In this document: piece by piece, positions 6,508 to 22,107 of the stretch
Position numbering within the stretch: the first letter of the stretch is position 1
Layout: every line of letters begins with the position of its first letter
Assembly: GCA_039832905.1 (NCBI GenBank)
Contig: JBDOLX010000112.1
Location: 806 to 42,131, forward strand
Direction of reading: 5' to 3'
Length of the DNA stretch: 41,326 nucleotides
Origin: Desulfurobacteriaceae bacterium
Lineage (GTDB): Bacteria; Aquificota; Aquificia; Desulfurobacteriales; Desulfurobacteriaceae
Notes under the pieces: model-generated
Seen by the model: the letters and a program-made list of their open reading frames with translations, nothing else
The model's database searches: none
What the model was told of the DNA's origin: nothing
Position numbers and translations under genes: made by a program

Positions 6508-6547
6508 AAGAACCCTCCTGGAAATATTAAACAGACTTAATTTTATT

Positions 6548-6576
6548 AAATTAGGAAACTGGTTAATATTTTACAA
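6548..6576 (-). promoter_or_regulatory. Candidate sigma-70 promoter for minus-strand fumarate reductase operon
   Basis: On the minus strand a TTGTAA -35 (6576-6571) and a TAATTT -10 (6553-6548) are separated by exactly 17 bp, about 40 bp upstream of the flavoprotein start. The surroundings are very AT-rich, which raises the chance-match rate. The -35 overlaps the first of three tandem repeats. Confidence 0.4.
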
Positions 6577-6601
6577 TTTTTTTACAGAATTTTTACAACT
6601 T
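6569..6601 (+). repeat. Three tandem 11-bp repeats beginning TTTTACA, candidate operator
   Basis: TTTTACA occurs at 6569, 6580 and 6591, exactly 11 bp apart, so the copies lie on the same face of the helix. The full units are TTTTACAATTT, TTTTACAGAAT and TTTTACAACTT. An inverted TGTAAA is present at 6664-6669. They sit between the two divergent fumarate reductase operons, where a regulator could control both. Confidence 0.5.
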
Positions 6602-6704
6602 TGATAAACTTTCTGTGCAAAAGAGCAATGGAACTTTTCTTCATTGACTAGATGTTAAAATCTTGTAAACAGAAATCCATTATATAAACGTATTAGGAGG
6701 AGAA

Positions 6705-8405: not shown

Positions 8406-8417
8406 GGGAGGAAAAGA

Positions 8418-9383
8418 ATGGAAAGTAGAAAGGTTATTTTTAGAATAAAAAGATTTAATCCAAAAAAGGATGAAAGGCCTTACTATAAGGAATATGAAAT
8501 AGATGTTCCAAAGGGAATGACCATTTTGGAAGCCCTCCAGTACATAAAAGATAACATTGATCCAACTTTAGCCTTTAGGGCTTTCTGTAGAAGTGCTATC
8601 TGTGGTTCCTGTTCCGTAAAGATAAACGGATATCCAAAACTTGCTTGTAAAACACAAGTTTTCAATGAACTTGACGTATATAACACGAACATTCTCACCA
8701 TAGAACCTATAGACAATATGGAAGTAATTAGAGACCTTATTGTTGATTGGGACAGTGCTATTCAAAAGATGGAGAAAATGAGACCATACCTCATTCCTGA
8801 TCCTGAAGTTGTTCCAGAGACACTTGATGAAGAGTGTAAGGTATATCCTCATGAACTAAAGAAATTTGATAAGTTTACAGACTGTATTCTCTGTACTACT
8901 TGCTACTCTGCCTGTGGAATAGTAAGAGTTGACAGCAATTACGGTGGACCTTTCCCACTTGCGAGAGTTTACAGATTTGCCGTTGATCCTAGGGATTCTT
9001 TAAAGAAAGAAAGGGCAAAGATTGGATTCTCCTTTGACATGTGGAACTGTGTTAGATGTAACAAGTGTGCTGATGTGTGTCCAAAACACATAGCACCTGT
9101 AGATGGAATAATGAAGCTAAGAGGTCTTTCTATAGAAATAGGTCTAAGAAACAACCCTGGAGCTCGCCACGTCATGGCGTTCTATAAGTCTTTACAGGAA
9201 TCTGGAATGCTCAACGAAGTTCTACTACCTCTTAGAACAAAAGGAATTAAGGGAGTTCTTGAAAACCTCTCAATTGGTATTAAGATGATTCTAAAAGGAA
9301 AGGCCCATTCCCCAATTATGAAACCAATTAAAGAACATGAAACTCTCAAAGAAGTTATGAAACGTGCTATGGAGGTTGAATAA
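8418..9383 (+). CDS. Fumarate reductase/succinate dehydrogenase iron-sulfur subunit, copy 1
   Basis: A 321-residue Fe-S subunit. The [2Fe-2S] ligands are Cys57, 62, 65 and 77. The two bacterial-ferredoxin motifs are Cys156/159/162/166 and Cys211/214/217/221. As in the paralog, the second motif (CVRCNKC) has an additional cysteine that predicts [4Fe-4S] in place of [3Fe-4S]. It lies 12 bp after the flavoprotein gene with a GGGAGG ribosome site, and its stop shares one base with the start of the CCG subunit (TAATG). Confidence 0.9.
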   Translation: MESRKVIFRIKRFNPKKDERPYYKEYEIDVPKGMTILEALQYIKDNIDPTLAFRAFCRSAICGSCSVKINGYPKLACKTQVFNELDVYNTNILTIEPIDNMEVIRDLIVDWDSAIQKMEKMRPYLIPDPEVVPETLDEECKVYPHELKKFDKFTDCILCTTCYSACGIVRVDSNYGGPFPLARVYRFAVDPRDSLKKERAKIGFSFDMWNCVRCNKCADVCPKHIAPVDGIMKLRGLSIEIGLRNNPGARHVMAFYKSLQESGMLNEVLLPLRTKGIKGVLENLSIGIKMILKGKAHSPIMKPIKEHETLKEVMKRAMEVE

Positions 9384-10252
9384 TGGGAAAGTATGCATTT
9401 TATCCAGGGTGTGCTGCTAAAGGGGCATCAAAAGAACTATATGAAGCAACAATAGCCGTTTCAAATAAACTAAATCTTGACATGGTAGAGCTTCCAGAGT
9501 TTAGCTGTTGTGGAGCAGGTGTTCTTGAGGAGATAAAAGAAGTTCTTGATATTGCAGTAAATGCAAGAAACTTAGCTTATGCTGAGAGAGAAGGTAGAGA
9601 TATCGTTACAGTTTGTAGCACATGCCTTTTGGTTTTAAGAAAAGCAAAATATCTTCTTGACAACGATGATGAATTAAGAGAAGAAGTAAACGAAATACTA
9701 AAGGAATCTGGCCTTGAATATAAAGGAACTGTTGATGTTAAGCACTTTCACTGGGTTCTTCTTGAGGAGTTCGGAGAAGAAGGATTAAAAGAAAAAGTTG
9801 TTAAACCGTTAACAGGACTAAAAGTTTATCCGTACTACGGTTGTCATACAGTAAGACCAAAAGACATAATAGGATACGAACCCTCTGAAAATCCTCAGTC
9901 TCTTGAGAAAATAATTAGGGCTCTTGGGGCCACTCCTGTTTGTGGTGAAAGAAGACTTGAATGTTGCGGTTTCCACGCTTTTTGGCCAGCTCCAAATATA
10001 TCAATGAAACTTACGGGTTTAAACCTTAAGGATGCTAGAAAGGAAAGTGCTGACTGTATTGTTACACCTTGTCCACTTTGCCACATGAACCTTGATGCTA
10101 ACCAAGAGAGAGCTCTAAAAGAGGTTGGAGAGAACTTCAAAATGCCCGTTTTACACGTTCCGCAACTTGTAGGTTTAGCTCTTGGAATCTCTCCAAGGGA
10201 ACTTGGAATCCATAGAAACATTACACCTGTTAACTGTGTTCAAATTTCTTAA
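9383..10252 (+). CDS. Fumarate reductase/succinate dehydrogenase CCG-domain subunit (SdhE/HdrB-like), copy 1
   Basis: A 289-residue protein with two full CCG domains: Cys10, Cys42-43 and Cys78/81, then Cys154, Cys194-195 and Cys230/233. The positions match the copy at 2832-3680 exactly. The family supplies the electron entry or exit site in TfrB- and SdhE-type enzymes. There is no membrane helix and no SdhC/D anchor gene in either operon, so the complex should be soluble or only peripherally bound. It is the last gene of the operon and is followed by a hairpin at 10266-10285. Confidence 0.87.
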   Translation: MGKYAFYPGCAAKGASKELYEATIAVSNKLNLDMVELPEFSCCGAGVLEEIKEVLDIAVNARNLAYAEREGRDIVTVCSTCLLVLRKAKYLLDNDDELREEVNEILKESGLEYKGTVDVKHFHWVLLEEFGEEGLKEKVVKPLTGLKVYPYYGCHTVRPKDIIGYEPSENPQSLEKIIRALGATPVCGERRLECCGFHAFWPAPNISMKLTGLNLKDARKESADCIVTPCPLCHMNLDANQERALKEVGENFKMPVLHVPQLVGLALGISPRELGIHRNITPVNCVQIS

Positions 10253-10316: not shown

Positions 10317-12578
10317 ATGGTTTTAGTTTTAAAAGTTCAAATAACAGGAGTTGTTCAAGGGGTAGGTTTTCGTCCCTTTGTCTATAGACTTGCCAAAAAA
10401 CTTGGACTCAAAGGATACGTCTCAAACACAGAGTTTGGCGTAATAATAGAAGTAGAAGGGGAAAAAGAAAAACTTGAGGAGTTTCTAATAAGACTTCAAG
10501 AAGAAAAGCCTCCAATCTCAAAAATTTACGGTTTGGAATATAAATTCCTTTCAGAAAAAGGTTTTAAAGATTTCCAAATAAAGAAAAGTAAGAAGGAAGG
10601 AAAAGTAAAAGTATCCATTTTGCCAGATATCGCTACCTGCGAAGATTGTCTACAGGAACTTTTTGACAAAAATGATAGGAGATATAGATACCCTTTTATA
10701 AATTGCACAAATTGTGGTCCTCGGTTTACGATTATAGAAAAGCTTCCTTATGATAGAGAAAATACGACGATGAAAATTTTTAAAATGTGTTCTTCTTGTA
10801 AAGAGGAATATGAAAATCCTGAAGATAGACGTTTTCACGCCGAACCCATTGCCTGTCCAGTTTGCGGTCCAAAAGTCTCTTTTGTAGACGAAACTCAAAA
10901 GATCGTTGCAGAAAAAGAGGAAGCTATAAAACTTACCGTTTCTTACTTAAAAAAAGGAAAAATAGTAGCAGTAAAAGGGATTGGAGGTTTTCACCTTATC
11001 TGTGATGCCACAAACGAGGAGACGGTAAAAAGTCTCCGTTTACGAAAACATAGAGAAGAAAAGCCTTTTGCTGTAATGTTTCCAGACTTGGAAACCCTAA
11101 AAAAATATGCAGTGGTTTCTACCTTAGAGGAAAGGGCTTTAAAGTCTCCTGAGGCCCCAATAGTTATTTTAGATAAGAAAAAAAACACAAGATTAGCCGA
11201 AAGCGTTTCTCCTCAGAATTCAACAGTTGGTGCTTTTCTTCCTTACTCTCCCCTTCACCACCTAATTTTAAAGGACTTTGGGAAGCCTGTAGTTGCTACA
11301 AGCTTTAACATAACAGACGAACCTATCATAAAAGATAACGAAGAAGCTATAAAGCAGATTGGGAAGATCGTAGATGCAGTTCTTATTCACGATAGACCAA
11401 TAAAAAGAAGGTGTGATGATTCTGTCGTAAGAATATTGGCGGGAAAACAGGTTCCAATAAGACGATCGAGAGGTTTTGCTCCTCTACCGGTAGTTTTGCC
11501 TTTTTCGACAGAAAGAACTGTTTTAGCTCTTGGCGTTCATATGAAGAATACTGTGGCAGTTTTGAAAGGGAACAAGGTTTACATTTCTCAACATATTGGT
11601 GATATAGATAATCCAAAAGCAGAAAGTTTTTTTGAAGAAGTTGTAAGTGATATGTTATCTCTTTTTGAAGTTCAGCCGGACGTCGTTGTTTGTGATTATC
11701 ACCCTCATTACTATTCCACAAAATTTGGAGAGAGATATTTTAAAGATAAGCTTCTAAAAGTTTACCATCACCATGCACACATAATTTCAGTAATGGCGGA
11801 AAACGAGATTCCGAAAGAAGAGAAGGTTATAGGTTTTGCATTTGATGGAACTGGCTATGGAAAAGACGGAACAATTTGGGGAGGAGAGGTTCTAATAGCG
11901 GACTATATCGACTTTGAAAGAGTTTTCCACCTTGATCCTTTTCTTTTACCAGGTGGAGAAAAAGCTGTAAAAGAACCTTACAGAGTTGCAGTTTCACTAT
12001 TAGTAAAATCCGGTATAGAACCGGAAGATATTCTAAAAACCGAAAAAAGGAAAGTTAGATTTGTAAAACAAATGGTAGAAAAAAAGATAAATTCTCCTAT
12101 AACTTCAAGTATGGGAAGGTTATTTGATGCGGTAGCAGCTATTCTTGGTATAAGAGAAACCGTTTCTTACAATGCCCAAGCTGCAATCTTGCTTGAACAG
12201 TATGCATTAAAATCAAAAGAAAAAGATTTTTACCAGTTCTCAATAGAAGGTGGAAAAATTAAGTGGAATGAAATAATTAAAGGAATAGTTAATGACCTAT
12301 TTGCAGAAAAGCCAATTTCTGACATAGCGAGAAAATTCCATAACACGGTAGTAAGGATAATTGCTGAAATTTCTAAAATCCTTGGAGAAACTTACTTAAT
12401 TAATACTATAGCACTTTCAGGTGGCGTTTTTCAAAACAGAATTCTGCTAGAAGAAAGTGTAAAAGAACTAGAGAATTTAGGTTTTAGGACTCTAATTCAC
12501 CAAATCGTTCCTTCAAATGATGGGGGGATTTCTCTAGGACAGGCAGTTTACGGGGGACTACTTGAGAAAAGTAGTTAA
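10317..12578 (+). CDS. hypF: Carbamoyltransferase HypF, [NiFe] hydrogenase maturation
   Basis: Makes the carbamoyl group that HypE converts to the CN ligands of the [NiFe] site. The 753 residues have the family order: acylphosphatase domain (about 5-90, GVVQGVGFRPF), two zinc-finger motifs (Cys108/111/130/133 and Cys158/161/180/183), a YrdC-like domain (about 195-375), and a Kae1-like domain with the YHHHAH metal motif. It is separated from the other hyp genes and placed at the head of the FrhAGB-like hydrogenase genes. Its 3' end overlaps the next gene by 17 bp. The ribosome site (AAAGGA) is modest. Confidence 0.96.
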   Translation: MVLVLKVQITGVVQGVGFRPFVYRLAKKLGLKGYVSNTEFGVIIEVEGEKEKLEEFLIRLQEEKPPISKIYGLEYKFLSEKGFKDFQIKKSKKEGKVKVSILPDIATCEDCLQELFDKNDRRYRYPFINCTNCGPRFTIIEKLPYDRENTTMKIFKMCSSCKEEYENPEDRRFHAEPIACPVCGPKVSFVDETQKIVAEKEEAIKLTVSYLKKGKIVAVKGIGGFHLICDATNEETVKSLRLRKHREEKPFAVMFPDLETLKKYAVVSTLEERALKSPEAPIVILDKKKNTRLAESVSPQNSTVGAFLPYSPLHHLILKDFGKPVVATSFNITDEPIIKDNEEAIKQIGKIVDAVLIHDRPIKRRCDDSVVRILAGKQVPIRRSRGFAPLPVVLPFSTERTVLALGVHMKNTVAVLKGNKVYISQHIGDIDNPKAESFFEEVVSDMLSLFEVQPDVVVCDYHPHYYSTKFGERYFKDKLLKVYHHHAHIISVMAENEIPKEEKVIGFAFDGTGYGKDGTIWGGEVLIADYIDFERVFHLDPFLLPGGEKAVKEPYRVAVSLLVKSGIEPEDILKTEKRKVRFVKQMVEKKINSPITSSMGRLFDAVAAILGIRETVSYNAQAAILLEQYALKSKEKDFYQFSIEGGKIKWNEIIKGIVNDLFAEKPISDIARKFHNTVVRIIAEISKILGETYLINTIALSGGVFQNRILLEESVKELENLGFRTLIHQIVPSNDGGISLGQAVYGGLLEKSS

Positions 12579-13734
12579 TATAGAGGGGATTTCTCTTACT
12601 GAAGGACATTCTGGACTTCACCTTGAAGTAGAAGATGGGATCATTAAACAAGGTTACTACTATGCCCTTGTTCCTGTAAGGGGTTTTGAAACACTTTTAC
12701 TTAATAAAGAAGCTGTTTTGGCTCCTATCCTTTCTTCTAGAATTTGTGGACTCTGTCAGATAACTCACTCAATAGCTTCAGCAAGAGCAGTAGAATCTGC
12801 TGCCAACATTGATGTTCCTGAAGAAGCTCAAAAACTTAGAGAAGTTCTTGGTCTTGCTGTAAGAATTTACAACAATCTCCTTCATCAAATAGTGATTTCT
12901 GAAGACCTTTTCTTAGATGAAGAAGAAAGGTTTGCCTTTATCAGAAAAGTCCAGAAGGTGAGAAAATTTACAGGAGAAGTTTTGGAGTCTATCGGAGGAG
13001 AAATAGTTCATTCTCCAAACATCAGAGTTGGGGGTATTTCAGAACCTCTGGAAGATTTTGTTAGAGATAAAATTCTTTCTTCCTGTGAGGAAATTGAACC
13101 TATTTTAAGAGAAATCTTTGAAGAGTTTAAGGAGAGAATAGATCTTCTATGGAAAAGGGAAGGACTGCCTGAAGATTTTGGAAAACACGACTTTCCATTC
13201 TTTGCCACAGATACTTTCTATGGGAAAAGCGTTGACTATAGTCGTATATCCTTTAAGTATCCTCAAGAAATTTTTGACTATCCCTTAAAAAGGGAAGTTG
13301 CGAACTTATTCCCATTCATAGACGGAAAAGTTTTTGAAACAGGTCCTAGGGCAAGGAAAGTTCTTTTTGAGGGTTACAAGCCTAAAGGGGGGGTTAAAGA
13401 ACTTCACATTTTACGGGCTTTGGAGACTTTGGAAGCTCTCATAAGGATAAAAGAAATCCTTGAAAGTTCCTCTTTTGAAGTCGATATGTGGAATAGAACT
13501 TTTCCGACCTCAGATGGAGAAATTAAAGGAGTAGGAGTTCACGAAGCTCCAAGGGGAACAAACATACACATTGCAAGTTTAGACAAGCGAGGAAAAATAG
13601 TGTACTATAAAATAATAGTACCAACTGAAATAAATTTTTCAGTAATAGCAAAAGCTATTGAGGGCGTACATATATCAAAAGTGGAACTCTTAATAAGAGC
13701 TTATGACCCTTGTGTTGTATGTGCTGTCCACTGA
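12562..13734 (+). CDS. Cytoplasmic [NiFe] hydrogenase large subunit, FrhA/MvhA-like, without C-terminal extension
   Basis: A 390-residue group 3-like large subunit. The Ni-binding motifs are intact: RICGLC with Cys62/Cys65 plus His69, and DPCVVC with Cys384/Cys387. An EAPRGTNIH block is also present. The protein ends exactly at His390, the residue after which maturation proteases normally cut, so the gene encodes an already 'processed' end and should not need an endopeptidase. The TTG start lies inside hypF with GGGGGA 5 bp upstream; no better ATG fits. There is no signal peptide. The absence of an extension resembles regulatory hydrogenases (HoxC/HupV) and some energy-converting types, although the partner subunits resemble FrhG and FrhB. 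Confidence 0.88.
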   Translation: MRKVVNIEGISLTEGHSGLHLEVEDGIIKQGYYYALVPVRGFETLLLNKEAVLAPILSSRICGLCQITHSIASARAVESAANIDVPEEAQKLREVLGLAVRIYNNLLHQIVISEDLFLDEEERFAFIRKVQKVRKFTGEVLESIGGEIVHSPNIRVGGISEPLEDFVRDKILSSCEEIEPILREIFEEFKERIDLLWKREGLPEDFGKHDFPFFATDTFYGKSVDYSRISFKYPQEIFDYPLKREVANLFPFIDGKVFETGPRARKVLFEGYKPKGGVKELHILRALETLEALIRIKEILESSSFEVDMWNRTFPTSDGEIKGVGVHEAPRGTNIHIASLDKRGKIVYYKIIVPTEINFSVIAKAIEGVHISKVELLIRAYDPCVVCAVH

Positions 13735-13752
13735 AAGAGTCAGAGGAAAAAA

Positions 13753-14493
13753 ATGTTTTTCTTTCATGAAGGTTGGGAATTTGATGATGACTTTAAGGTA
13801 AAACTTGGCTTTTTCCACTTTTCAAGTTGTTCTGGATGTCAAGTGGCTTTTTTAGATATATTTGATGACTTTGTAGAGATACTTGATACTGTAGAACTTG
13901 CTTATGCTAACATGTTAACTAAGAAAAAAGAAATTCCTAAGCTCCATATTGCTTTTGTGGAGGGTGCTTTCTGTATAGAGGATAGAAGACATATTGCTCT
14001 TGCAAAGGAACTTGCTGAAAAAGCCAACATTCTTGTTACAGTCGGTGGATGCGCTTCTTTTGGTGGAATTAGAAGATTAAGTGTAGGAAGTCAATCTCCT
14101 CAACCCTCCCATCAATCATTTGTTCCACTAACAGAAGTAGGTATACTGAGGAAAAAAATAAAGTATGCAATTCCAGGATGTCCACCCAATCCTTCTTTAC
14201 TCTACAACTTTATAATAGCTCTTTTGGAAGTTAACGAAGATTTTCTTCAGCCATTTGAGTTTATGGCAAACTCACAAGATGCTAGCGGTTTTGATATAGT
14301 AAAAGAAGTGATAAATAAGGGATTGTGTGTTGGTTGTGGAACGTGCGTGATGGCTTGTTCTTCGAGAGCTATGAACTTTAATCAACTTGTTAATAGACCA
14401 ACTTTCAATCCTTCTCTTTGTATACATTGTGGTTCTTGTTTGGCTGCTTGTCCTCAAAGTTTTAAACCTTATCCTCAACCTACTTATACTTAA
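13753..14493 (+). CDS. Cytoplasmic [NiFe] hydrogenase small subunit, FrhG-like with 2x[4Fe-4S] ferredoxin domain
   Basis: A 246-residue small subunit. The proximal cluster ligands are Cys26, 29, 100 and 143 (SSCSGC, GGC, PGCPPNP). The C-terminal domain has two ferredoxin motifs, Cys192/195/198/202 and Cys223/226/229/233, giving three [4Fe-4S] clusters in all, as in the F420-reducing hydrogenase subunit FrhG. There is no Tat signal and no membrane anchor, so it is cytoplasmic. It lies 18 bp after the large subunit with an AGAGGA ribosome site. Electrons from H2 would pass through these clusters to the FrhB-like product of the next gene. Confidence 0.9.
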   Translation: MFFFHEGWEFDDDFKVKLGFFHFSSCSGCQVAFLDIFDDFVEILDTVELAYANMLTKKKEIPKLHIAFVEGAFCIEDRRHIALAKELAEKANILVTVGGCASFGGIRRLSVGSQSPQPSHQSFVPLTEVGILRKKIKYAIPGCPPNPSLLYNFIIALLEVNEDFLQPFEFMANSQDASGFDIVKEVINKGLCVGCGTCVMACSSRAMNFNQLVNRPTFNPSLCIHCGSCLAACPQSFKPYPQPTYT

Positions 14494-14505
14494 AAGGGGA
14501 CTTTG

Positions 14506-15408
14506 ATGTTAAGACTTGATAAGAAGTTCCTTTTTGGAAAGTATAAGGTGTTATATAAAGTCGAGTGTCAGGGAATCAATCCTTTAGAGTTTATCCTTAA
14601 GAAAATGATGGATGAAGATTTAATAGACGGTGTTATAGCTCCCTCACAAACAGGAACAAAAATAGAACCTAAACTCTTTACCCAAGTAGAAGACATAAGA
14701 CTTGCAAGGCTTTTTTTCTATTCAGGACAGAACACTCTACTTAAAAAGGCAATTCAAAAGTATAGGTTAAATAAAATTGTAGTGGTTGCCCCTTCATGTA
14801 TCTTGGACGGTCTTAATAAAACCCAATATTATGGAATAGGGTGCAATTGGACAAAAACTGCTGTTGCTCTTAAGGCTGGTATTCTATGTTTAGGTATTCT
14901 TTCTCCAGCTTCTGTTGAGTCTTTAAGTATAGACATAACAGGAAAAAAACAAAAAATTACAAGAAACTTCTTATCTCCCGATGGCTATTTTTTTGAAACA
15001 GAAGAGAAAGAAAAGGTGAAAGTTGATATAGAGATTTACCACCATTACATAAATTCAGGTTGTAGATACTGTCTGAACTTATCAGCAAAAGGATCAGACA
15101 TTACCTACGTTCCAATGGAAAGAGAAGAAAGTGGAATTTTGATAGTTAGAAGCGAAAGAGGACTTAGAACTTTAAGTATTCTTCAAAAGAAATTTATGAA
15201 ATCGTTTCACTTTAAACCATTGAGTTCTAATGATCTAGATTACATAGAAAGATTATTGAAAGAAAAACTCTTACTTAATATTGATCAAATTCTAGAAAGA
15301 GTAGAAGTTGGTCTACCAGTTCCTAAGTGGAATGGAAATAAATTTCAAAAATTTTACAGCCTTTGGAACAGTATAAATAGCACTAACATAGAAGAGGAGG
15401 TATTCTAA
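14506..15408 (+). CDS. FrhB/FdhB-like flavoprotein subunit (divergent)
   Basis: A 300-residue protein resembling the F420-hydrogenase/dehydrogenase beta family. The N-terminal DLIDGVIAPSQ block and the C-terminal CRYCLNLSAKGSDI block (Cys186, Cys189) align by eye with the FrhB signatures. Other cysteines that could bind a cluster are Cys98 and Cys113. Known members hold FAD and one [4Fe-4S] cluster and reduce F420 or another acceptor. Whether this host makes F420 cannot be seen here, and the sequence is diverged enough that the acceptor is unknown. ATG 14506 (AAAAGGGGA upstream) is preferred over the TTG at 14503. Confidence 0.75.
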   Translation: MLRLDKKFLFGKYKVLYKVECQGINPLEFILKKMMDEDLIDGVIAPSQTGTKIEPKLFTQVEDIRLARLFFYSGQNTLLKKAIQKYRLNKIVVVAPSCILDGLNKTQYYGIGCNWTKTAVALKAGILCLGILSPASVESLSIDITGKKQKITRNFLSPDGYFFETEEKEKVKVDIEIYHHYINSGCRYCLNLSAKGSDITYVPMEREESGILIVRSERGLRTLSILQKKFMKSFHFKPLSSNDLDYIERLLKEKLLLNIDQILERVEVGLPVPKWNGNKFQKFYSLWNSINSTNIEEEVF

Positions 15409-15409
15409 G

Positions 15410-15700
15410 ATGATTTCTGGTCTTTTCGTGGAGGAGAGGGAACTTCTCACAAAAGCTGAGCTACTAAAAGTTCTTGGGCATCCAGAAAGGTTAGCTATCT
15501 TACTTCTGGTTTATGATGAAGAAATGTGTGTGAAGGATCTAATGGAAGCTCTTGGTATTTCACAGCCAAAAGTTTCTCAGCACGTAGGACTTATGAAGGA
15601 ACTGGGTATTTTATCCTGCAGGAAGGAGAGGACAAAGGTTCTTTATAAACTTTCTAATCCTGTGGTCAAAGAAATAATGGATATTCTTTTTAGACAATAG
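15410..15700 (+). CDS. ArsR-family winged-helix transcriptional regulator
   Basis: A 96-residue DNA-binding protein. The winged helix covers about residues 12-90, with the recognition helix in ISQPKVSQHVGLMKELG. The ArsR metal motif ELCVCDL appears as EMCVKDL, with only one of its two cysteines (Cys43), plus one further cysteine (Cys65). Classical As/Sb/Cd sensing is therefore doubtful, and a thiol/redox or other signal is possible. It starts 1 bp after the FrhB-like stop with GAGGAGG upstream, and it is the last gene before the group 1 hydrogenase promoter region, so it is a natural candidate regulator of either operon. Confidence 0.88.
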   Translation: MISGLFVEERELLTKAELLKVLGHPERLAILLLVYDEEMCVKDLMEALGISQPKVSQHVGLMKELGILSCRKERTKVLYKLSNPVVKEIMDILFRQ

Positions 15701-15747: not shown

Positions 15748-15776
15748 TTGAAGATGGACTTTTTTTCTTGTAAAAT
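15748..15776 (+). promoter_or_regulatory. Candidate upstream promoter (P2) for hydrogenase operon
   Basis: TTGAAG (15748-15753), a 17-bp spacer and TAAAAT (15771-15776), 106 bp upstream of the second candidate promoter. It could give a longer leader for the hydrogenase transcript. The region is AT-rich, so a chance match is possible. Confidence 0.4.
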
Positions 15777-15853
15777 GCAAAAAATCTTATATTAAAGAAC
15801 TTGAGAAAAGCTAAACCATTCGAGATATAGAAAATAAAATTTTTATGATACTC

Positions 15854-15882
15854 TTGACGAATAATTAAATATCCTCTAAAAT
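15854..15882 (+). promoter_or_regulatory. Sigma-70-type promoter (P1) for group 1 hydrogenase operon
   Basis: TTGACG (-35, 15854-15859), a 17-bp spacer and TAAAAT (-10, 15877-15882), with the start predicted near 15889, about 37 bp before the small subunit ATG. This is the best sigma-70 match seen in the window. Together with P2 it fills the 225-bp gap between the ArsR gene and the hydrogenase. Confidence 0.62.
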
Positions 15883-15925: not shown

Positions 15926-17005
15926 ATGGATAGAAGCATTTTTATGGGGGGAATACCAGGAACAACCTCCCGTAGAGGGTTCTTAAGGGCTTGTGCCATT
16001 GCTACAGCTGCTATGGGTCTTCCTATGGAAATGGTTTCTAAAGTTGCTGAGGCTGCTAAAAGTCCTGAAAGACCTAGAGTTGTCTGGCTTCATTTTCAAG
16101 AATGTACTGGATGTTCTGAATCATTATTAAGGGCTTCTCATCCAGATTTGGCATCTCTTATTCTTGATCTTATTTCTTTAGACTATCACGAAACCCTAAT
16201 GGCTGCTGCTGGTAAGCAGGCTGAAGAAAACCTTGAAAAGGCTATAGAGGAAGGAAACTATCTCCTCGTTGTCGAAGGTAGCATTCCACTAAAGGACGAT
16301 GGGATCTACTGTAAAGTTGCAGGAAAAACTGCAAAGGAAATCTTGGAAAAGGCTGCAGAAAAGGCAATAGCGATTATAGCTATTGGAACCTGTTCTGCTT
16401 ACGGTGGAATTCCTGCAGCAAAACCAAATCCAACCGGAGCTGTTGGAGTTCAGGATATAATCAAGAATAAACCAATAATAAACGTACCTGGATGTCCTCC
16501 AAACCCACATAACTTCCTATCAACTGTTCTTTATTACCTAACTTTCAAAAAACTACCCCCAACAGACAGATGGGGAAGACCTCTCTTTGCTTACGGTAGA
16601 AAGATTCACGACCACTGTGAAAGAAGACCTCACTTTGACGAAGGTAGATTTGTTGAACAGTTTGGAGATGTTGGACACAGACTTGGATACTGTCTATATA
16701 AAGTTGGATGTAAGGGACCAGAAACTTACTCTAACTGTCCTGTGATTAGATTTAACGATGTAGAAGTATGGCCAGTTTCCGTTGGAAACGGTTGTTATGG
16801 TTGTACAGAACCTAACTTCTGGGATACTATGACTCCATTCCGTAAAAGACTTCCAAACATTGAGATACCTGGTAGTGGTATTCAAGCAAGTGCTACACAG
16901 GTTGGAAAAGTTGCTCTCGGAGTTACCGCAGCAGCCCTTGCAGCTCACGCTACAGTTGGTATAGCTAAAAAGGTAATTACAGGTGGAAATAAGGAAGAAG
17001 AATAA
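15926..17005 (+). CDS. Group 1 [NiFe] hydrogenase small subunit, Tat-exported and membrane-anchored
   Basis: A 359-residue small subunit of an uptake hydrogenase, carrying the Fe-S relay. The twin-arginine signal is SRRGFLRA (Arg16/Arg17) followed by a hydrophobic stretch. The proximal site begins with Cys60/Cys63 (CTGC) and continues with GTCSAYGG and PGCPPNP. The medial/distal cluster region (HDHCERRPHFDEG, the GCKGP block, NGCYGC) is complete. A C-terminal hydrophobic helix (about 326-350) should anchor it on the periplasmic face. It has the GGAGGACAAG ribosome site and is first in the operon after P1. Called HydA, HynS or HynB in different nomenclatures. Confidence 0.96.
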   Translation: MDRSIFMGGIPGTTSRRGFLRACAIATAAMGLPMEMVSKVAEAAKSPERPRVVWLHFQECTGCSESLLRASHPDLASLILDLISLDYHETLMAAAGKQAEENLEKAIEEGNYLLVVEGSIPLKDDGIYCKVAGKTAKEILEKAAEKAIAIIAIGTCSAYGGIPAAKPNPTGAVGVQDIIKNKPIINVPGCPPNPHNFLSTVLYYLTFKKLPPTDRWGRPLFAYGRKIHDHCERRPHFDEGRFVEQFGDVGHRLGYCLYKVGCKGPETYSNCPVIRFNDVEVWPVSVGNGCYGCTEPNFWDTMTPFRKRLPNIEIPGSGIQASATQVGKVALGVTAAALAAHATVGIAKKVITGGNKEEE

Positions 17006-17011
17006 TTTAAA

Positions 17012-17034
17012 AAACCTTGATCGCAAGGAGGTTT
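17012..17034 (+). promoter_or_regulatory. Hairpin masking the ribosome site of the hydrogenase large subunit
   Basis: In the 34-bp gap between small and large subunit genes, CCTTG (17015-17019) pairs with CAAGG (17024-17028), and alternatively AAACCT (17012-17017) pairs with AGGTTT (17029-17034). Either stem covers part of the AAGGAGG ribosome site. It could tune subunit stoichiometry or temperature response, but short stems at SD sites also arise by chance. Confidence 0.35.
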
Positions 17035-17039
17035 AGACA

Positions 17040-18770
17040 ATGGCTAAGAGAATAGTGGTTGACCCTATTACAAGAATAGAGGGTCATCTTAGAATAGAAG
17101 TTCTTCCTGAAAATGGTTATATCAAAGATGCATACTCTTCTGCTCAAATGTGGAGAGGAATAGAAATTATTATGAAAGGAAGACATCCAGATGATGCATG
17201 GATGTTTGTTCAAAGATTTTGTGGAGTTTGTACAACAGTTCACGCTTTGGCTTCAGTTAGATCTGTGGAAAATGCCCTTCAGCTTGAAATTCCTTTTAAC
17301 GCTCAAATGATAAGAAACATCATTGTTGCTGCTCATGCACTCCACGACCATATCGTTCACTTCTACCATCTCTCAGCCCTTGACTGGGTAGATGTGGTTT
17401 CTGCTTTAAAAGCTGATCCTCACAAAACTGCCAAGATAGCTGAAAGTATTTCTGATTGGAAATTAAACGGAGCGTCTGTATTTAAAGCTGTTCAGGAAAA
17501 ACTTAAAAAGTTTGTAGAAAGTGGGCAGCTTGGACCTTTTGCCAACGGATACTGGGGACACCCAGCAATGAAACTACCACCAGAAGTTAACCTGCTTGCA
17601 GTAACCCATTATTTACAAGCTCTTGATTACCAGAGAAAAGCCGATATGGCTATTGCTATTTTGGGTGGTAAAAACCCACACATTCAGAACCTTGCTGTAG
17701 GTGGAGTTTCTACAGCTATCAATCCAGACAATGAAGCAACTCTCAACATGGAAAGACTTTACTACATTAAACAACTCCTTGAGGAAGTTAGGGAATTCGT
17801 TCACAAAGTTTACCTACCAGACGTTCTTGCAATTTCTGCACTCTACAAAGAGTGGCTCTCTTACGGTAGAGGAGTTGATAACTACCTTGCAGTTCCAGAA
17901 CTTCCACAAGATACAAAGGGAGAGGTCTTTGATCTCCCAGGTGGAACTATCATTGGTGGAGATCTTAACACAGTTAAACCAATTAAGGGCTTCAACGATA
18001 AGTACTTCATTAACAATGTTGTTGAAAATATTACTCATGCTTGGTATAAAGGAGATTGGACAAGACATCCATGGGAAGAAGAAACTGTTCCTGAGTACAC
18101 AGGCTTTAAAGCTGATGGAACAGTCGATGAAAAAGGAAAGTATTCTTGGTCTAAGGCACCAAGATTTAAGTACGAAGGGGACACAATACCAATGCAAGTT
18201 GGACCTCTTGCTCAAGTCCTTGTCGGATACGCTCAAGGACATAAACTTACAAGAAAATACGTTGATGAAGCCCTCTCTACTCTTAGCAGCTTAGTAGGAG
18301 AAAGAGTAGGTGTTGAAGTTCTCCAGTCTACAATGGGAAGACACATCGCAAGGGCAATTAGAGCTAAAATGCTTTCAGACCTTGTTATCAAGCAATGGGA
18401 ACAACTTGTTGATAACATTGGAAGAGGAGATCTTGAAATCTTCAATCCACCATCCTACCCAGCTGGAGAAGTTAGAGGATGTGGAATGTTCGAAGCTCCA
18501 AGAGGAGCTCTTTCCCACTGGATAGTTATAGAGAACGGAAAAATCAAGAACTACCAAGCTGTTGTTCCATCTACATGGAACTCCGGTCCAAGAGACGCTA
18601 AAGGACAAATGGGACCATATGAAGCATCTCTTATCGGAAACCCAATAGAAGATCCTGAGAAGCCCCTTGAAGTTCTAAGAACTGTTCACTCCTTTGATCC
18701 ATGTATCGCTTGTGCAGTTCACATGATTGATCCAGAAGGAAAGGAAATAGTTAAAGTTAAAGCTTTGTAG
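17040..18770 (+). CDS. Group 1 [NiFe] hydrogenase large (catalytic) subunit
   Basis: A 576-residue catalytic subunit that oxidises H2 on the periplasmic side. Ni ligands are in RFCGVC (Cys61/Cys64) and DPCIAC (Cys555/Cys558). The maturation cleavage site follows His561, leaving a 15-residue C-terminal peptide to be removed by the protease encoded at 19536. It has no signal of its own, so it should be co-exported with the Tat-tagged small subunit. The EAPRGALSHW block is intact. AAGGAGG lies upstream. The stop codon's last base is also the first base of a GC-rich hairpin. Confidence 0.97.
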   Translation: MAKRIVVDPITRIEGHLRIEVLPENGYIKDAYSSAQMWRGIEIIMKGRHPDDAWMFVQRFCGVCTTVHALASVRSVENALQLEIPFNAQMIRNIIVAAHALHDHIVHFYHLSALDWVDVVSALKADPHKTAKIAESISDWKLNGASVFKAVQEKLKKFVESGQLGPFANGYWGHPAMKLPPEVNLLAVTHYLQALDYQRKADMAIAILGGKNPHIQNLAVGGVSTAINPDNEATLNMERLYYIKQLLEEVREFVHKVYLPDVLAISALYKEWLSYGRGVDNYLAVPELPQDTKGEVFDLPGGTIIGGDLNTVKPIKGFNDKYFINNVVENITHAWYKGDWTRHPWEEETVPEYTGFKADGTVDEKGKYSWSKAPRFKYEGDTIPMQVGPLAQVLVGYAQGHKLTRKYVDEALSTLSSLVGERVGVEVLQSTMGRHIARAIRAKMLSDLVIKQWEQLVDNIGRGDLEIFNPPSYPAGEVRGCGMFEAPRGALSHWIVIENGKIKNYQAVVPSTWNSGPRDAKGQMGPYEASLIGNPIEDPEKPLEVLRTVHSFDPCIACAVHMIDPEGKEIVKVKAL

Positions 18771-18793
18771 GGGGTGGCACCTCCCCCTTTTTT
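18770..18793 (+). terminator. Terminator/attenuator between hydrogenase large subunit and cytochrome b
   Basis: GGGGG (18770-18774) pairs with CCCCC (18783-18787), with an internal GG/CC pair, followed by six T residues. It starts inside the stop codon. Because the cytochrome b gene begins only 23 bp further on, with no obvious promoter, it probably works as a partial terminator that lowers expression downstream. Confidence 0.7.
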
Positions 18794-18815
18794 AAGCCTA
18801 TAGAAGGAGGGCGAA

Positions 18816-19457
18816 ATGGCTATTTATGAAAAGAAATACGTTTGGAGTATTCTCCTTAGACTTTTCCACTGGTCATTTGCAATTTCAATATTTACTCTTG
18901 TAGTAACAGGGCTTTACATAAATTGGCCTTGGACAAATACCTGGATGGAAGGAAGCCACCAGTGGACAATGGCTATCATGAGATGGATACACTTCATAGC
19001 AGGTATGATCTTCTCCTGTGCAGTTCTTGCTAGACTTTACCTGTGGTTCTTTGGAAATAAATACGAAAAAGTTTGGGACTTTTTACCAATTACGGGGAGA
19101 AATATAAAGAACCTTTTCTCAACTCTTCTCTATTACGCCTACCTCACCGACCATCACGAAGAAAGACTTGGACATAATGCTTTAGCGGGAACAGCTTACT
19201 TTTCCACCTTAATTTTAGCTGTAATTCAGTTAATTACAGGTTTCTACCTCCTTTACCCTGAGAATGAGTTCTGGACTTCTCTTGGTTCTATCTTTGGAAC
19301 CCAACAGGAAGCAAGGTTTATCCATCACATTCTCAACTGGTACTTTGCATGGTTTGCTTTAGTTCACATTTATATTGTTGTTTGGAACGATATTAAGAAC
19401 CCAGAGGGTCTTATTTCTTCTATCTTCGATGGATACAAGTTTGCCCATAAAAAATAA
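18816..19457 (+). CDS. Ni/Fe-hydrogenase b-type cytochrome subunit
   Basis: A 213-residue membrane cytochrome b that takes electrons from the small subunit to the quinone pool. Four hydrophobic helices are visible, starting near LFHWSFAISI, WIHFIAGMIF, TLILAVIQLI and WYFAWFALVH. Histidines in or next to them (for example in LFHW, IHFIAG, FIHH and LVHI) are candidate haem ligands, as in HydC/HyaC proteins. GAAGGAGGG precedes the ATG. It lies directly downstream of the large subunit behind an attenuator-like hairpin and is followed by a strong terminator. Confidence 0.92.
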   Translation: MAIYEKKYVWSILLRLFHWSFAISIFTLVVTGLYINWPWTNTWMEGSHQWTMAIMRWIHFIAGMIFSCAVLARLYLWFFGNKYEKVWDFLPITGRNIKNLFSTLLYYAYLTDHHEERLGHNALAGTAYFSTLILAVIQLITGFYLLYPENEFWTSLGSIFGTQQEARFIHHILNWYFAWFALVHIYIVVWNDIKNPEGLISSIFDGYKFAHKK

Positions 19458-19490
19458 GTAGAATACATAAATTAGTAAATTAGCATAATG

Positions 19491-19511
19491 AGGGGGAGCT
19501 TATCTCCCCCT
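19491..19511 (+). terminator. Rho-independent terminator after cytochrome b
   Basis: AGGGGGAG (19491-19498) and CTCCCCCT (19504-19511) form a perfect 8-bp stem with a 5-nt loop, followed by a T-rich stretch (TTATTAATTTAT). It separates the structural hydrogenase genes from the maturation genes; no clear promoter is seen in the 24 bp that remain before the protease gene, so read-through is likely. Confidence 0.8.
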
Positions 19512-19535
19512 TTATTAATTTATAAGGGGTTAAAA

Positions 19536-20069
19536 ATGGAAAAAGTAGGCATTCTTGGTGTAGGAAACATCTTATTAAGAGATGAGGGTTTTGGAGTGAA
19601 ATTAATTTATACTCTGAAGGCAAAGTACGATTTCCCAAAAAATGTGGAACTAATAGATGGTGGGACTGCGGGAATTCTTCTATCTCCAGAAATAGACGGA
19701 CTCGATAAACTGCTTATAATAGACGTTGTTAATGCAGAAGGAAGTCCTGGAGAAATAAAGATTTATGAAAAAGATGATTTCTTTATAGATAGACTTCCTT
19801 TAAAACTTTCCCCTCATCAAATAGGACTTCAGGAGGTTCTGTTACTAAATGAAATGAAAGGTACCTGTCCAAAGGAAATAAAGTTAATAGGAATTATCCC
19901 TAAGTCTATAGAGACAGGAACATCTCTTACACCTGAACTTGAAGAAAAAGTAGAAGAGGTAGAAAAGCTTGTAATAGAAACTCTAAAAAGCTGGGGAATA
20001 GAAGTAAGAGAAAAAGAAAATCCAGAGATCCCGAACCTTTGGTGGGAAAAGGAAATAAAGGAGGCGTAA
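19536..20069 (+). CDS. Hydrogenase maturation protease (HybD/HyaD family)
   Basis: A 177-residue endopeptidase that removes the C-terminal peptide of the large subunit after Ni insertion. It has the family start GVGNILLRDEGFG, and the Ni-sensing residues are Glu17, Asp63 and His94 (SPHQIG). The ATG at 19536 (AAGGGG upstream) is the right start: a longer frame from 19488 would translate through the terminator hairpin. The C-terminus carries a charged tail, about residues 155-177. It abuts hypC with no gap. The likely substrate is the large subunit at 17040, because the other large subunit in the window has no extension. Confidence 0.92.
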   Translation: MEKVGILGVGNILLRDEGFGVKLIYTLKAKYDFPKNVELIDGGTAGILLSPEIDGLDKLLIIDVVNAEGSPGEIKIYEKDDFFIDRLPLKLSPHQIGLQEVLLLNEMKGTCPKEIKLIGIIPKSIETGTSLTPELEEKVEEVEKLVIETLKSWGIEVREKENPEIPNLWWEKEIKEA

Positions 20070-20318
20070 ATGTGTGTTGGCGTTCCTATGAGAATAGTTG
20101 AAATAAACTATCCAATGGCTGTAGCAGAAGCAAAAGGTGTGAAAAGGACTATAAGCCTTATGCTTTTACCGGAAGACGAGGTTAAGGTAGGCGATTATGT
20201 TATGGTTCATGTTGGAAACGCCATAGAGGTAATAGATGAAAAAGAGGCAGAAGAAATCTGGGAAGTTCTTGATGAGATAATGGAAACTATCGATACAGAG
20301 GAAAGTAAAGATGCATGA
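20070..20318 (+). CDS. hypC: Hydrogenase maturation chaperone HypC
   Basis: An 82-residue chaperone that carries the Fe(CN)2CO unit with HypD and delivers it to the large subunit. It starts MCVGVPMRIVEI with the essential Cys2. The VGDYVMVHVGNAIE block is the family signature. The start codon directly follows the protease stop, with AAGGAGG inside the protease gene, and its end overlaps hypA by 8 bp. Confidence 0.95.
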   Translation: MCVGVPMRIVEINYPMAVAEAKGVKRTISLMLLPEDEVKVGDYVMVHVGNAIEVIDEKEAEEIWEVLDEIMETIDTEESKDA

Positions 20319-20667
20319 AACCTCTATAGCTTTTGGACTACTCCAATCTTTGACTAGCCTCGCAGATAAAGAGAATGCAAAGAAGATAACGAAGGTAAGG
20401 GTAAAGATAGGGAAACTTTCAGGAATAGTAATCGATTCTTTTGTTTTTGCTTTCGATGCTTTAAAGGGAGATTTTCCAAAGTTAAAAGATACAGAATTAA
20501 TAGTGGAAGAAGTTCCAATTAGATACAGGTGTAACTCGTGCAAGACAGAATTTGAAACCGATTCAATATACTTTCCTGAATGTATGAAGTGTCAATCTAT
20601 TGATCTAACTTTGGTAAGCGGGGAAGAACTTGAAGTAGTAGATGTGGAGATTGAGGTTGGCAAATGA
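20311..20667 (+). CDS. hypA: Nickel metallochaperone HypA
   Basis: A 118-residue Ni-delivery protein. The Ni site is at the MHE N-terminus (His2, Glu3), and the structural zinc site is Cys74/77 and Cys91/94 (CNSC, CMKC). It works with HypB in Ni insertion. It overlaps hypC by 8 bp and the following methyltransferase by 4 bp (ATGA), so the three are translationally coupled. Confidence 0.96.
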   Translation: MHETSIAFGLLQSLTSLADKENAKKITKVRVKIGKLSGIVIDSFVFAFDALKGDFPKLKDTELIVEEVPIRYRCNSCKTEFETDSIYFPECMKCQSIDLTLVSGEELEVVDVEIEVGK

Positions 20668-21362
20668 AGGCGAAAGAAATTTTTAATAGCCGTTTTGCCA
20701 TATACTATGAAAAAGTAATAAACAGATTTTCAAGCCCTATTCAGATAGACAGATGGAGAAAAGAGTTAGTAAAAGGTGCTCTAGACTTTTGTCCCAGTGC
20801 TTCCGTTATTCTCGATTTTTGTTCTGGTGCAGGAAACGTTGGAAAATTCTTTCTAAAGGAAAAACCGGAAAGCATACTGATAAACTGCGATATCAGTAAA
20901 CCCCTTTTAGGTCTTGCTAAGGAAAATTTCAAGAAAGAGAGAAATGTTTATTATGTATGTTCGGATAACAGATTCTTTCCAGTAAAGGAATGTTCAGTTG
21001 ACGTAATTTTCTCTTCTTTCTGTGTTAGAAACTCTCCAGAACCTTTACTAACCATCAAAGAAGCGAAGAGAGTCCTAAAGAACAAAGGAGTGTGGGCAAT
21101 TTTGGATTTTTTCAAGATAGAAAAGGGAAATTTCTGTACTGTTACAAATAACGTAATCTTTAAGTCGTTTATGAAGCTTAACAAACTGTTTCTGCCTTCC
21201 AATTCGGAAGCTATAAATTACCTTTTCGAATCTATTGAGAAGTTTTACACAGTCAATAGATTCAAGGAAATACTTTCGTCCTATGGTTTTAAGATAGTTA
21301 GGTTTAGAAACTTCATGGGTGGAATTGCAAGTGTTTTAATAGCAATAAAAGAGGAGGTGTAA
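20664..21362 (+). CDS. Class I SAM-dependent methyltransferase (UbiE/MenG-like)
   Basis: A 232-residue methyltransferase with a Rossmann SAM site at LDFCSGAGNVG (about residues 49-59) and a second acidic motif (INCDIS). The block FCVRNSPEPLLTIKEAKRVL resembles the FGLRNVPD region of UbiE/MenG quinone methyltransferases, so a menaquinone-type substrate is possible. The similarity is partial and another small-molecule substrate cannot be excluded. It is embedded between hypA (ATGA overlap) and hypB (1-bp gap), which is not a usual hyp operon position. Confidence 0.8.
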   Translation: MKAKEIFNSRFAIYYEKVINRFSSPIQIDRWRKELVKGALDFCPSASVILDFCSGAGNVGKFFLKEKPESILINCDISKPLLGLAKENFKKERNVYYVCSDNRFFPVKECSVDVIFSSFCVRNSPEPLLTIKEAKRVLKNKGVWAILDFFKIEKGNFCTVTNNVIFKSFMKLNKLFLPSNSEAINYLFESIEKFYTVNRFKEILSSYGFKIVRFRNFMGGIASVLIAIKEEV

Positions 21363-21363
21363 T

Positions 21364-22107
21364 ATGTGTGATGTTTGTGGATGTGGAAATCATGATCATA
21401 CTAACTCTCACTCCCATTCTCACGAAATAAGGAAAGTGGAACTAAATCAGAGTTTACTTCGCGAGAATGAAAGAGTTGCTGAATCAAATAGAAAACACTT
21501 TGATGAAAAAGGAATCTTAGCTGTAAACCTTATTAGTTCTCCTGGTTCTGGAAAGACAACACTTCTTGAAAAAACAATAGAAGCTTTAAGAGATGAACTT
21601 AAAATAGCAGTTCTTGAAGGAGACATTGAGACAGAAAGAGATGCTGAGAGAATAAGAGCAAAGGGCGCTAAAGCTATCCAGCTTACGACAGGAGGATCTT
21701 GCCATCTAGAGGCTTCCTTAGTTCACAAAGGATTCCACGCTCTAGAAAAGGAAATGGAAGGAGAAACTCCGGATATTCTATTTATTGAAAACGTAGGTAA
21801 CCTTGTATGTCCATCCTCTTTTTACTTGGGTGAACATGTAAGAGTGGTTCTCGTTTCTGTTCCTGAAGGACCGGATAAACCCGCCAAGTATCCAAAAGCT
21901 TTTAAAACTTCAAACGTGTTCATCATCACAAAGGCAGATCTTCTACCTTACTTTGATTTTGACGTTGAAAAAGTTAAAAAAGAAGCTTTGTCAATCAATC
22001 CTAACCTTAAAATATTTGTTGTTTCTGCAAAGACAGGCGAAGGTCTAAATGAATGGTTTGACTATTTAAAGGAAATGGTAGCAAGGAAAAAGGGAATAAA
22101 GGTTTAA
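21364..22107 (+). CDS. hypB: Hydrogenase nickel-insertion GTPase HypB
   Basis: A 247-residue GTPase that drives Ni transfer with HypA. It has the N-terminal high-affinity metal site CDVCGCG followed by a short His-rich run (HDHTNSHSHSH), the P-loop SSPGSGKTT (residues 58-66), the interdomain metal ligands Cys113/His114 and Cys149, and the TKAD guanine motif. The His-rich segment suggests Ni storage as well as delivery. GAGGAGGTG lies upstream. It is the last gene of the plus-strand hydrogenase cluster and is followed immediately by a hairpin. Confidence 0.96.
   Translation: MCDVCGCGNHDHTNSHSHSHEIRKVELNQSLLRENERVAESNRKHFDEKGILAVNLISSPGSGKTTLLEKTIEALRDELKIAVLEGDIETERDAERIRAKGAKAIQLTTGGSCHLEASLVHKGFHALEKEMEGETPDILFIENVGNLVCPSSFYLGEHVRVVLVSVPEGPDKPAKYPKAFKTSNVFIITKADLLPYFDFDVEKVKKEALSINPNLKIFVVSAKTGEGLNEWFDYLKEMVARKKGIKV

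Follow-up and report, generated by a model that had tools for sequence, protein, structure and literature searches.

A tail-less F420-type [NiFe] hydrogenase encoded with an ArsR-family protein in Desulfurobacteriaceae: a candidate H2-sensing module

Does a [NiFe] hydrogenase that is encoded together with a transcriptional regulator serve metabolism, or does it report H2 to the regulator? The question is raised by a gene cassette, frhAGB-arsR, in the 41,326-nt stretch of DNA analysed here (the window; Desulfurobacteriaceae bacterium, assembly GCA_039832905.1, contig JBDOLX010000112.1, positions 806 to 42,131, internal label G000:C112), which belongs to a source genome of 1.66 Mb in 120 contigs. 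The cassette comprises frhA-like, frhG-like, frhB-like and arsR genes, all four confirmed on the + strand (Table 1). A first-pass annotation of the window had proposed an H2 or redox sensor that controls the neighbouring hyn hydrogenase operon. Here, the cassette is tentatively assigned to regulation: it would be an H2- or redox-sensing hydrogenase module that arose from the F420-reducing family. This reading falls just short of being probable. It is a good candidate for an H2 sensor that sets the levels of other hydrogenases in these heat-loving vent bacteria. As the cassette provides candidates for the sensor, the regulator, the operator and the targets, the question is directly testable.

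The missing tail and the descent of FrhA

The FrhA-like protein ends in YDPCVVCAVH, directly followed by TGA, with zero residues past the final His. In [NiFe] large subunits, this His is the residue normally exposed by maturation proteases. Full-length orthologues with 52-80% identity are present in 20 of 22 Desulfurobacteriaceae genomes, the remaining two being assemblies that are 83% complete. Nothing close is found elsewhere in the phylum Aquificota (136 genomes in all), where the next best match reaches 164 bits, compared with 316-363 bits within the family. The tail is absent in all 20 orthologues, which share the end pattern DPC[IVT][VA]C[AS]xH followed by a stop. A local truncation, a frameshift, chance or a sequencing error is ruled out, because 20/20 relatives have the identical tail-less end. 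Methanogen FrhA sequences, by comparison, encode 17-19 further residues past the same His, and this C-terminal extension has been described (PMC3591093). The [NiFe] groups listed as naturally tail-less are 2b, 2d, 4c, 4e and 4g (PMC7294309); group 3 is not listed and would be an addition. The first-pass annotation was therefore right that the large subunit stops at the His after DPCVVCA without a protease-cleavable tail, that F420-type FrhA is normally extended, and that sensory group 2b and some energy-converting types are tail-less. The conservation in close relatives, on which it had made its reading depend, is complete.

The maximum-likelihood tree contained 12 sampled Frh-like proteins and two methanogen FrhA proteins, with a group 2 side of Aquificota sequences, without proteobacterial HoxC. 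The Frh-like proteins form one clade (support 100/99), sister to the methanogen FrhA proteins (joint support 100/100) and far from the tail-less group-2-like Aquificota enzymes and from the Hyn, group 3b and Mvh-like enzymes of the same family. As judged from this sister position, the frhA-like enzyme is a derived member of group 3a; the same placement rules out an origin from group 2b/2d sensors. Thus, the comparison with reference groups that had been suggested earlier settles on methanogen FrhA and yields no kinship with group 2. HydDB had suspected another partner for the group 3a enzymes of Aquificae and Thermococci (PMC5037454). The catalytic and Ni-ligand residues C62, C65, C384, C387, H69, E14, R331 and H390 are invariant in the 20 genomes.

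The source genome also encodes a Mvh-like large subunit with a small subunit and an HdrA-FlpD fusion (L147:2995-7557, G000:C108; L140 in G008). This large subunit is tail-less in the source genome (G000) and in a genome of a sister family (G135), but has about 26 extra residues in G008, a single-contig assembly of the same genus as the window. Tails can therefore be lost between close relatives, and a general rule that a missing tail denotes a sensor is ruled out.

Electron path and the ArsR partner

All 12 ligand cysteines of FrhG are invariant in the 20 genomes, and every iron-sulphur (Fe-S) residue checked is kept. The cluster cysteines of FrhB (C98, C128, C186 and C189) are invariant as well. 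The AlphaFold model of FrhB, with a mean predicted local distance difference test score (pLDDT) of 83.6, shows the FrhB fold, with a template modelling (TM) score of about 0.76 against FrhB of M. barkeri. All three subunits fall below the curated NCBIfam cut-offs, and the Pfam search gave no match to the FrhB N-terminal domain in the FrhB-like protein of the window. FrhB of M. marburgensis holds flavin adenine dinucleotide (FAD) by loops 23-30 (QDGG), 71-77 and 131-138 (PMC3930138). In the family, a loop comparison found the FAD/F420 motifs QDGG, GTKYT and MENF replaced and the positions aligned to D25, G27, T30, E136 and F138 changed in 20/20 genomes; the methanogen stretch GSVGSPDGWSTV is replaced too. 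Judging by these residues, the flavin appears to be truly missing. As the flavin site is lost, no hydride transfer to F420 or NAD(P) would be expected, and the predicted chain comprises the [NiFe] site and four [4Fe-4S] clusters, with no hydride-passing end. CofD, which is needed for F420 synthesis, is absent from all 22 family genomes, while methanogen controls were positive. CofH matches were left unused, since this family overlaps with menaquinone-synthesis enzymes. FrhB also has an extra conserved C-terminal tail, KW...WN...EEEVF. Its EEEVF end is not claimed as an ArsR-binding motif, because the same codons carry the arsR ribosome-binding site in the window.

The arsR gene starts -1 to +2 bp after frhB in 20/20 genomes from seven genera. 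In the window the distance is 1 bp and the hyn operon comes next, as the first-pass annotation had reported. In genus g3, the cassette has moved behind mfd, with neither hypF nor hyn near, and arsR is retained, so that arsR is the constant companion and hyn the one that can be missing. In the arrangements read, the start of frhA lies within the end of hypF or mfd, and the cassette therefore has no promoter gap directly before it. The overlap with hypF (17 bp in the window; -17 or -4 bp in the 16 genomes with hypF-first order) indicates that the cassette is read from an upstream transcript. Expression of frhAGB-arsR is likely to be low and steady. The neighbourhoods of the 20 genomes contain no histidine kinase in the cassette, and no gene for thioredoxin reductase (TrxR) or a thiol carrier was found in it in any genome read.

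In an alignment of 19-20 ArsR orthologues, the recognition helix (ISQPKVSQHVG) is near-invariant and a single Cys, C40 within ExCVK, is invariant, whereas a CxC metal pair on helix alpha3, a second redox Cys and a SurR-type CxxC are absent. The protein passes the winged-helix domain cut-off (PF01022, NF033788). BigR, a sulfide/sulfite sensor, is among its weak NCBIfam matches and is also a near match in the PDB. None of the other three ArsR genes of the source genome lies beside a hydrogenase gene. A redox role of the cassette ArsR is hinted at because its closest paralogue in this genome, 50% identical and likewise with a single Cys, directly precedes trxA-trxB (L151:1152-2679, G000:C51).

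Candidate operator, mechanism and rival explanations

In D. thermolithotrophum HR11, protein abundance at 2 µM H2 exceeded that at 43 µM H2 10.5-17.7-fold for HydBCDA, 7.8-15.2-fold for Ech and 2.5-3.1-fold for Hyn, while FrhAGB went undetected in the proteome (PMC12724263). Of the four hydrogenase groups of T. ammonificans, all but Frh were found in its proteome (PMC5441870).

A palindrome near AATATAAAGAATTCTTTATATT, located ~145 bp before the hynS start codon, is common to 10 genomes; in G020, a contig end truncates an eleventh copy. A matrix built from these ten sites was applied to 91 intergenic regions, which were ranked by score (median -1.2). Below the training regions, nearly all of the next ranks are taken by hydB promoters; one non-hydB region, in the G008 locus, scores 14.1. 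The hydB promoter region was long enough for testing in 17 cases; 15 of these score above their dinucleotide-shuffled versions (P<0.05), and combining the genus medians gives P ~4e-6. In most genera, the palindrome of the hynSL upstream region is seen again before hydBCDA-ech; in the genus of the window it is weak. The distance of the site varies from genus to genus, which fits a binding site better than mere homology. The hydB site of the source genome and of g3 extends across the spacer between -35 and -10, a position that would fit repressor action. A direct pattern search of 22 genomes, allowing 3 mismatches, placed a large share of all matches upstream of hyn and hyd, and most other examined matches fall inside genes. 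Because this search also gives sites within coding sequence, single weak matches are not regarded as evidence. For the regulon, hydBCDA-ech is at least as likely a member as hyn, with ArsR as the putative binder of the palindrome.

Several observations concern other upstream regions. Palindrome-like sites lie directly upstream of nuoA (G013, L071 near 1501) and of a nap-like cytochrome/nitrate reductase operon (G019, L075 near 1501), which are possible further regulon members. Between the two divergent fumarate-reductase operons (window positions 6508-6704), the best score is only 1.8, and an operator there was rejected. A second conserved inverted repeat, TTTCTAAAAATAGAAA, is found beside the hyn -35 element in g2, g5 and g7 (e.g., L051 about 11270-11310); g1 and g6 have a different AT-rich element in its place. 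In G001 (L099:1-309, C34), a repeated transposase-like sequence replaces the usual region upstream of hynS, parting hyn from the promoter region.

In the proposed mechanism, FrhA would split H2 at a [NiFe] site whose assembly needs no tail processing, and the electrons would pass via three FrhG clusters to one FrhB cluster. With its flavin site lost, FrhB would relay either single electrons or a conformational change and so set the state of a partner protein. This partner would be the co-translated ArsR repressor, reached either directly or by way of a thiol carrier that targets its one conserved Cys, and ArsR would control hydBCDA-ech and hyn through the AT-rich palindrome. At low H2, repression by ArsR would be relieved and more hydrogenase made. 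FrhAGB is presumed to be of low abundance and to have a low turnover, the latter as reported for sensor hydrogenases (PMC5665086). A more specific version, in which an F420-family [NiFe] hydrogenase has become specialised in H2 sensing and passes its signal directly to a one-component ArsR repressor, without a kinase or soluble carrier, with the Fe-S end of the flavin-less FrhB addressing ArsR and the pair setting hydrogenase levels family-wide, is somewhat unlikely to hold in full.

A related arrangement has been proposed for Thermococcales, and the cassette would be a compact bacterial counterpart of that Frh-TrxR-SurR route. According to PMC10025317, the Thermococcus frhAGB hydrogenase reduces TrxR, which feeds the ArsR-family protein SurR, and has been suggested as a regulatory hydrogenase; deletion of frhA raises expression of a CO-dependent hydrogenase cluster (PMC6367845). 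The frhAGB/TrxR-Pdo-SurR system of Thermococcus onnurineus resembles the cassette in its F420-less Frh, its vent organism and the proposed control via an ArsR-family hydrogenase regulator. There, SurR is encoded apart from frhAGB, carries a CxxC switch and is reached via TrxR and Pdo, whereas the Desulfurobacteriaceae regulator is encoded by one translationally coupled gene and has a single Cys. With methanogen FrhAGB (group 3a), the cassette shares three homologous subunits, sister-clade placement, the FrhB fold and a full Fe-S chain. It differs in its tail-less FrhA, the lost FAD/F420 motifs of FrhB, the arsR gene in the operon, the absence of frhD from the cassette and of CofD, and with it F420, from the organism, and subunits under the NCBIfam cut-offs. 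HoxBC/HupUV (group 2b) are similar in the missing C-terminal tail, the cytoplasmic location and the idea of a low-abundance sensor. They are kin only at superfamily level, and the cassette has no histidine kinase and an extra FrhB subunit. RexT and the thiol-sensing ArsR proteins have in common with the cassette ArsR the fold, a Cys on helix alpha3 and, for the nearest paralogue, the link to trxA-trxB; RexT has two vicinal Cys (PMC8960804), of which the cassette ArsR keeps only one. If the sensor reading is true, a conserved vent enzyme that is at present annotated as reducing F420 or ferredoxin would need a new annotation. With Thermococcal Frh-SurR as a second case, it would suggest that F420-type hydrogenases outside methanogens became regulators more than once, each with an ArsR-family protein.

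The sensor reading of the first-pass annotation is favoured by the conserved tail loss, the fixed arsR, the lost FrhB motifs, the absence of CofD, the ArsR paralogue at trxA-trxB, the Thermococcus precedent and the non-detection of Frh in the two proteomes, and so has more behind it than the window by itself could show. Several points weigh against it. The missing tail alone is no proof of sensing and is the weakest part of the argument; groups 4c and 4e are tail-less and catalytic (PMC7294309). The catalytic site of FrhA looks fully competent, with every Ni and catalytic residue checked being kept, and H69 after the first Cys pair is invariant in the 20 genomes, with no Gln, at the presumed counterpart of the Gln position of regulatory hydrogenases (PMC5665086). 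The non-detection of Frh can simply mean low expression, and each genome has 3-7 ArsR genes, that of the window four. The earlier proposal of control over the neighbouring hydrogenase stands in that the palindrome lies upstream of two H2-responsive operons. It is weakened in that hydBCDA-ech is at least an equal target and that the palindrome before hyn is degenerate in g1 (the genus of the window), g3 and g4. At hydB, the palindrome is not convincing in G008 and G013, so that G008 has neither site convincingly, and its genus is presumably the one in which the H2 response was measured. The binding of ArsR to the palindrome, the signalling from FrhAGB to ArsR and its direction are inferred.

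The main rival is an H2:ferredoxin enzyme with a co-transcribed regulator. Such a metabolic hydrogenase would deliver electrons from H2 one at a time to ferredoxin, for use in CO2 fixation, and ArsR would only tune neighbouring expression, without a signal from the enzyme. The active site and Fe-S chain are complete, the reductive tricarboxylic acid cycle needs reduced ferredoxin, and this role has been proposed for T. ammonificans (PMC5441870). It is nonetheless unlikely, given that Frh was undetected in two proteomes of cells grown on H2 + CO2, that Ech and the Mvh/HdrA-like set already fill the role, and that the constant union of arsR and frhB is left unexplained.

The enzyme could instead reduce the thiol pool with H2, as Thermococcal Frh does in feeding TrxR and thereby SurR (PMC10025317), while ArsR would be a general thiol-redox regulator that senses the pool, making the effect of H2 indirect. 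The single conserved Cys and the paralogue preceding trxA-trxB agree with this, but the lack of a TrxR or thiol carrier gene in the cassette and of the second Cys used by SurR and RexT makes it quite unlikely. The translational coupling of arsR to frhB, fixed across seven genera, speaks against two unrelated functions in one operon, where ArsR would answer to sulfide, polysulfide or metal and another factor would bind the palindrome. The BigR matches and the several ArsR genes per genome suit such a split; with the CxC metal pair and the second redox Cys absent from ArsR, it is very unlikely. The regulatory module derived from the F420-reducing family thus remains the tentative assignment.

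Locus features and further hydrogenases of the genome

Table 1. Features of the frhAGB-arsR cassette and its surroundings (window positions)
Feature	Position	Strand	Evidence
hypF, carbamoyltransferase for NiFe cofactor	10317..12578	+	TIGR00143, 900 bits
frhA-like [NiFe] large subunit, 390 aa, TTG start within hypF end	12562..13734	+	TIGR03295, 332.6 bits (cut-off 392.5)
frhG-like small subunit, ligands for three [4Fe-4S] clusters	13753..14493	+	TIGR03294, 235.3 bits (cut-off 245.5)
frhB-like subunit	14506..15408	+	70.3 bits (curated frhB cut-off 331.5)
GAGGAGGT, arsR ribosome-binding site within last frhB codons (EEEV)	15394..15401	+	sequence reading
ArsR-family winged-helix regulator, 96 aa	15410..15700	+	PF01022, 49.7 bits; NF033788, 78 bits
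Degenerate hyn-palindrome copy AAAATGCAAAAAATCTTATATT, only right half clear	15772..15793	.	score 5.2 (18-26 in other genera)
Predicted hyn promoter, sigma70-like, TTGACG-N17-TAAAAT	15854..15882	+	hynS upstream alignment; position conserved across family
hynSLC-hupD-hypCA-methyltransferase-hypB operon, probable target	15926..22107	+	TIGR00391 and related matches; synteny

An in-frame TTG at 14503 is also possible as the start of frhB. The arsR gene is separated from hynS (start 15926) by a 225-bp gap, and HynL (17040-18770) has a normal 15-residue C-terminal tail. The methyltransferase-like gene of the hyn operon (20664-21362) lies between hypA and hypB in every genome with a readable operon. 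The hydrogenase cluster is adjoined by two divergent fumarate-reductase operons (4813-10252), one of which includes an HdrB/SdhE-like subunit; fumarate-reductase operons also rise at low H2 in D. thermolithotrophum HR11 (PMC12724263).

Another tail-less large subunit (ending in SFDPCTACSIH) is encoded in the source genome in one overlapping operon with a Tat-type (twin-arginine translocation) small subunit and a HAMP/methyl-accepting chemotaxis protein (MCP) chemoreceptor (L146:7462-11374, G000:C92). The same gene order occurs in the sister family (L148:2087-6772, G135:C56; 63% identity, ending in SIQ), and such operons are present in only 2/136 Aquificota genomes. The operon possibly encodes a periplasmic H2-taxis receptor. 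It is a separate matter from the cassette, and shows a second tail-less subunit encoded with a signalling protein in the source genome.

In the group 3b large subunit HydA of most of the family, an in-frame TGA takes the place of the first Cys codon in the C-terminal motif (DP-TGA-IACAVH; loci L004, L008 (G000:C32), L031-L033, L036, L037 and L039). This codon likely specifies selenocysteine, to judge from its position in the motif. HydA of genus g3 has Cys at the TGA position.

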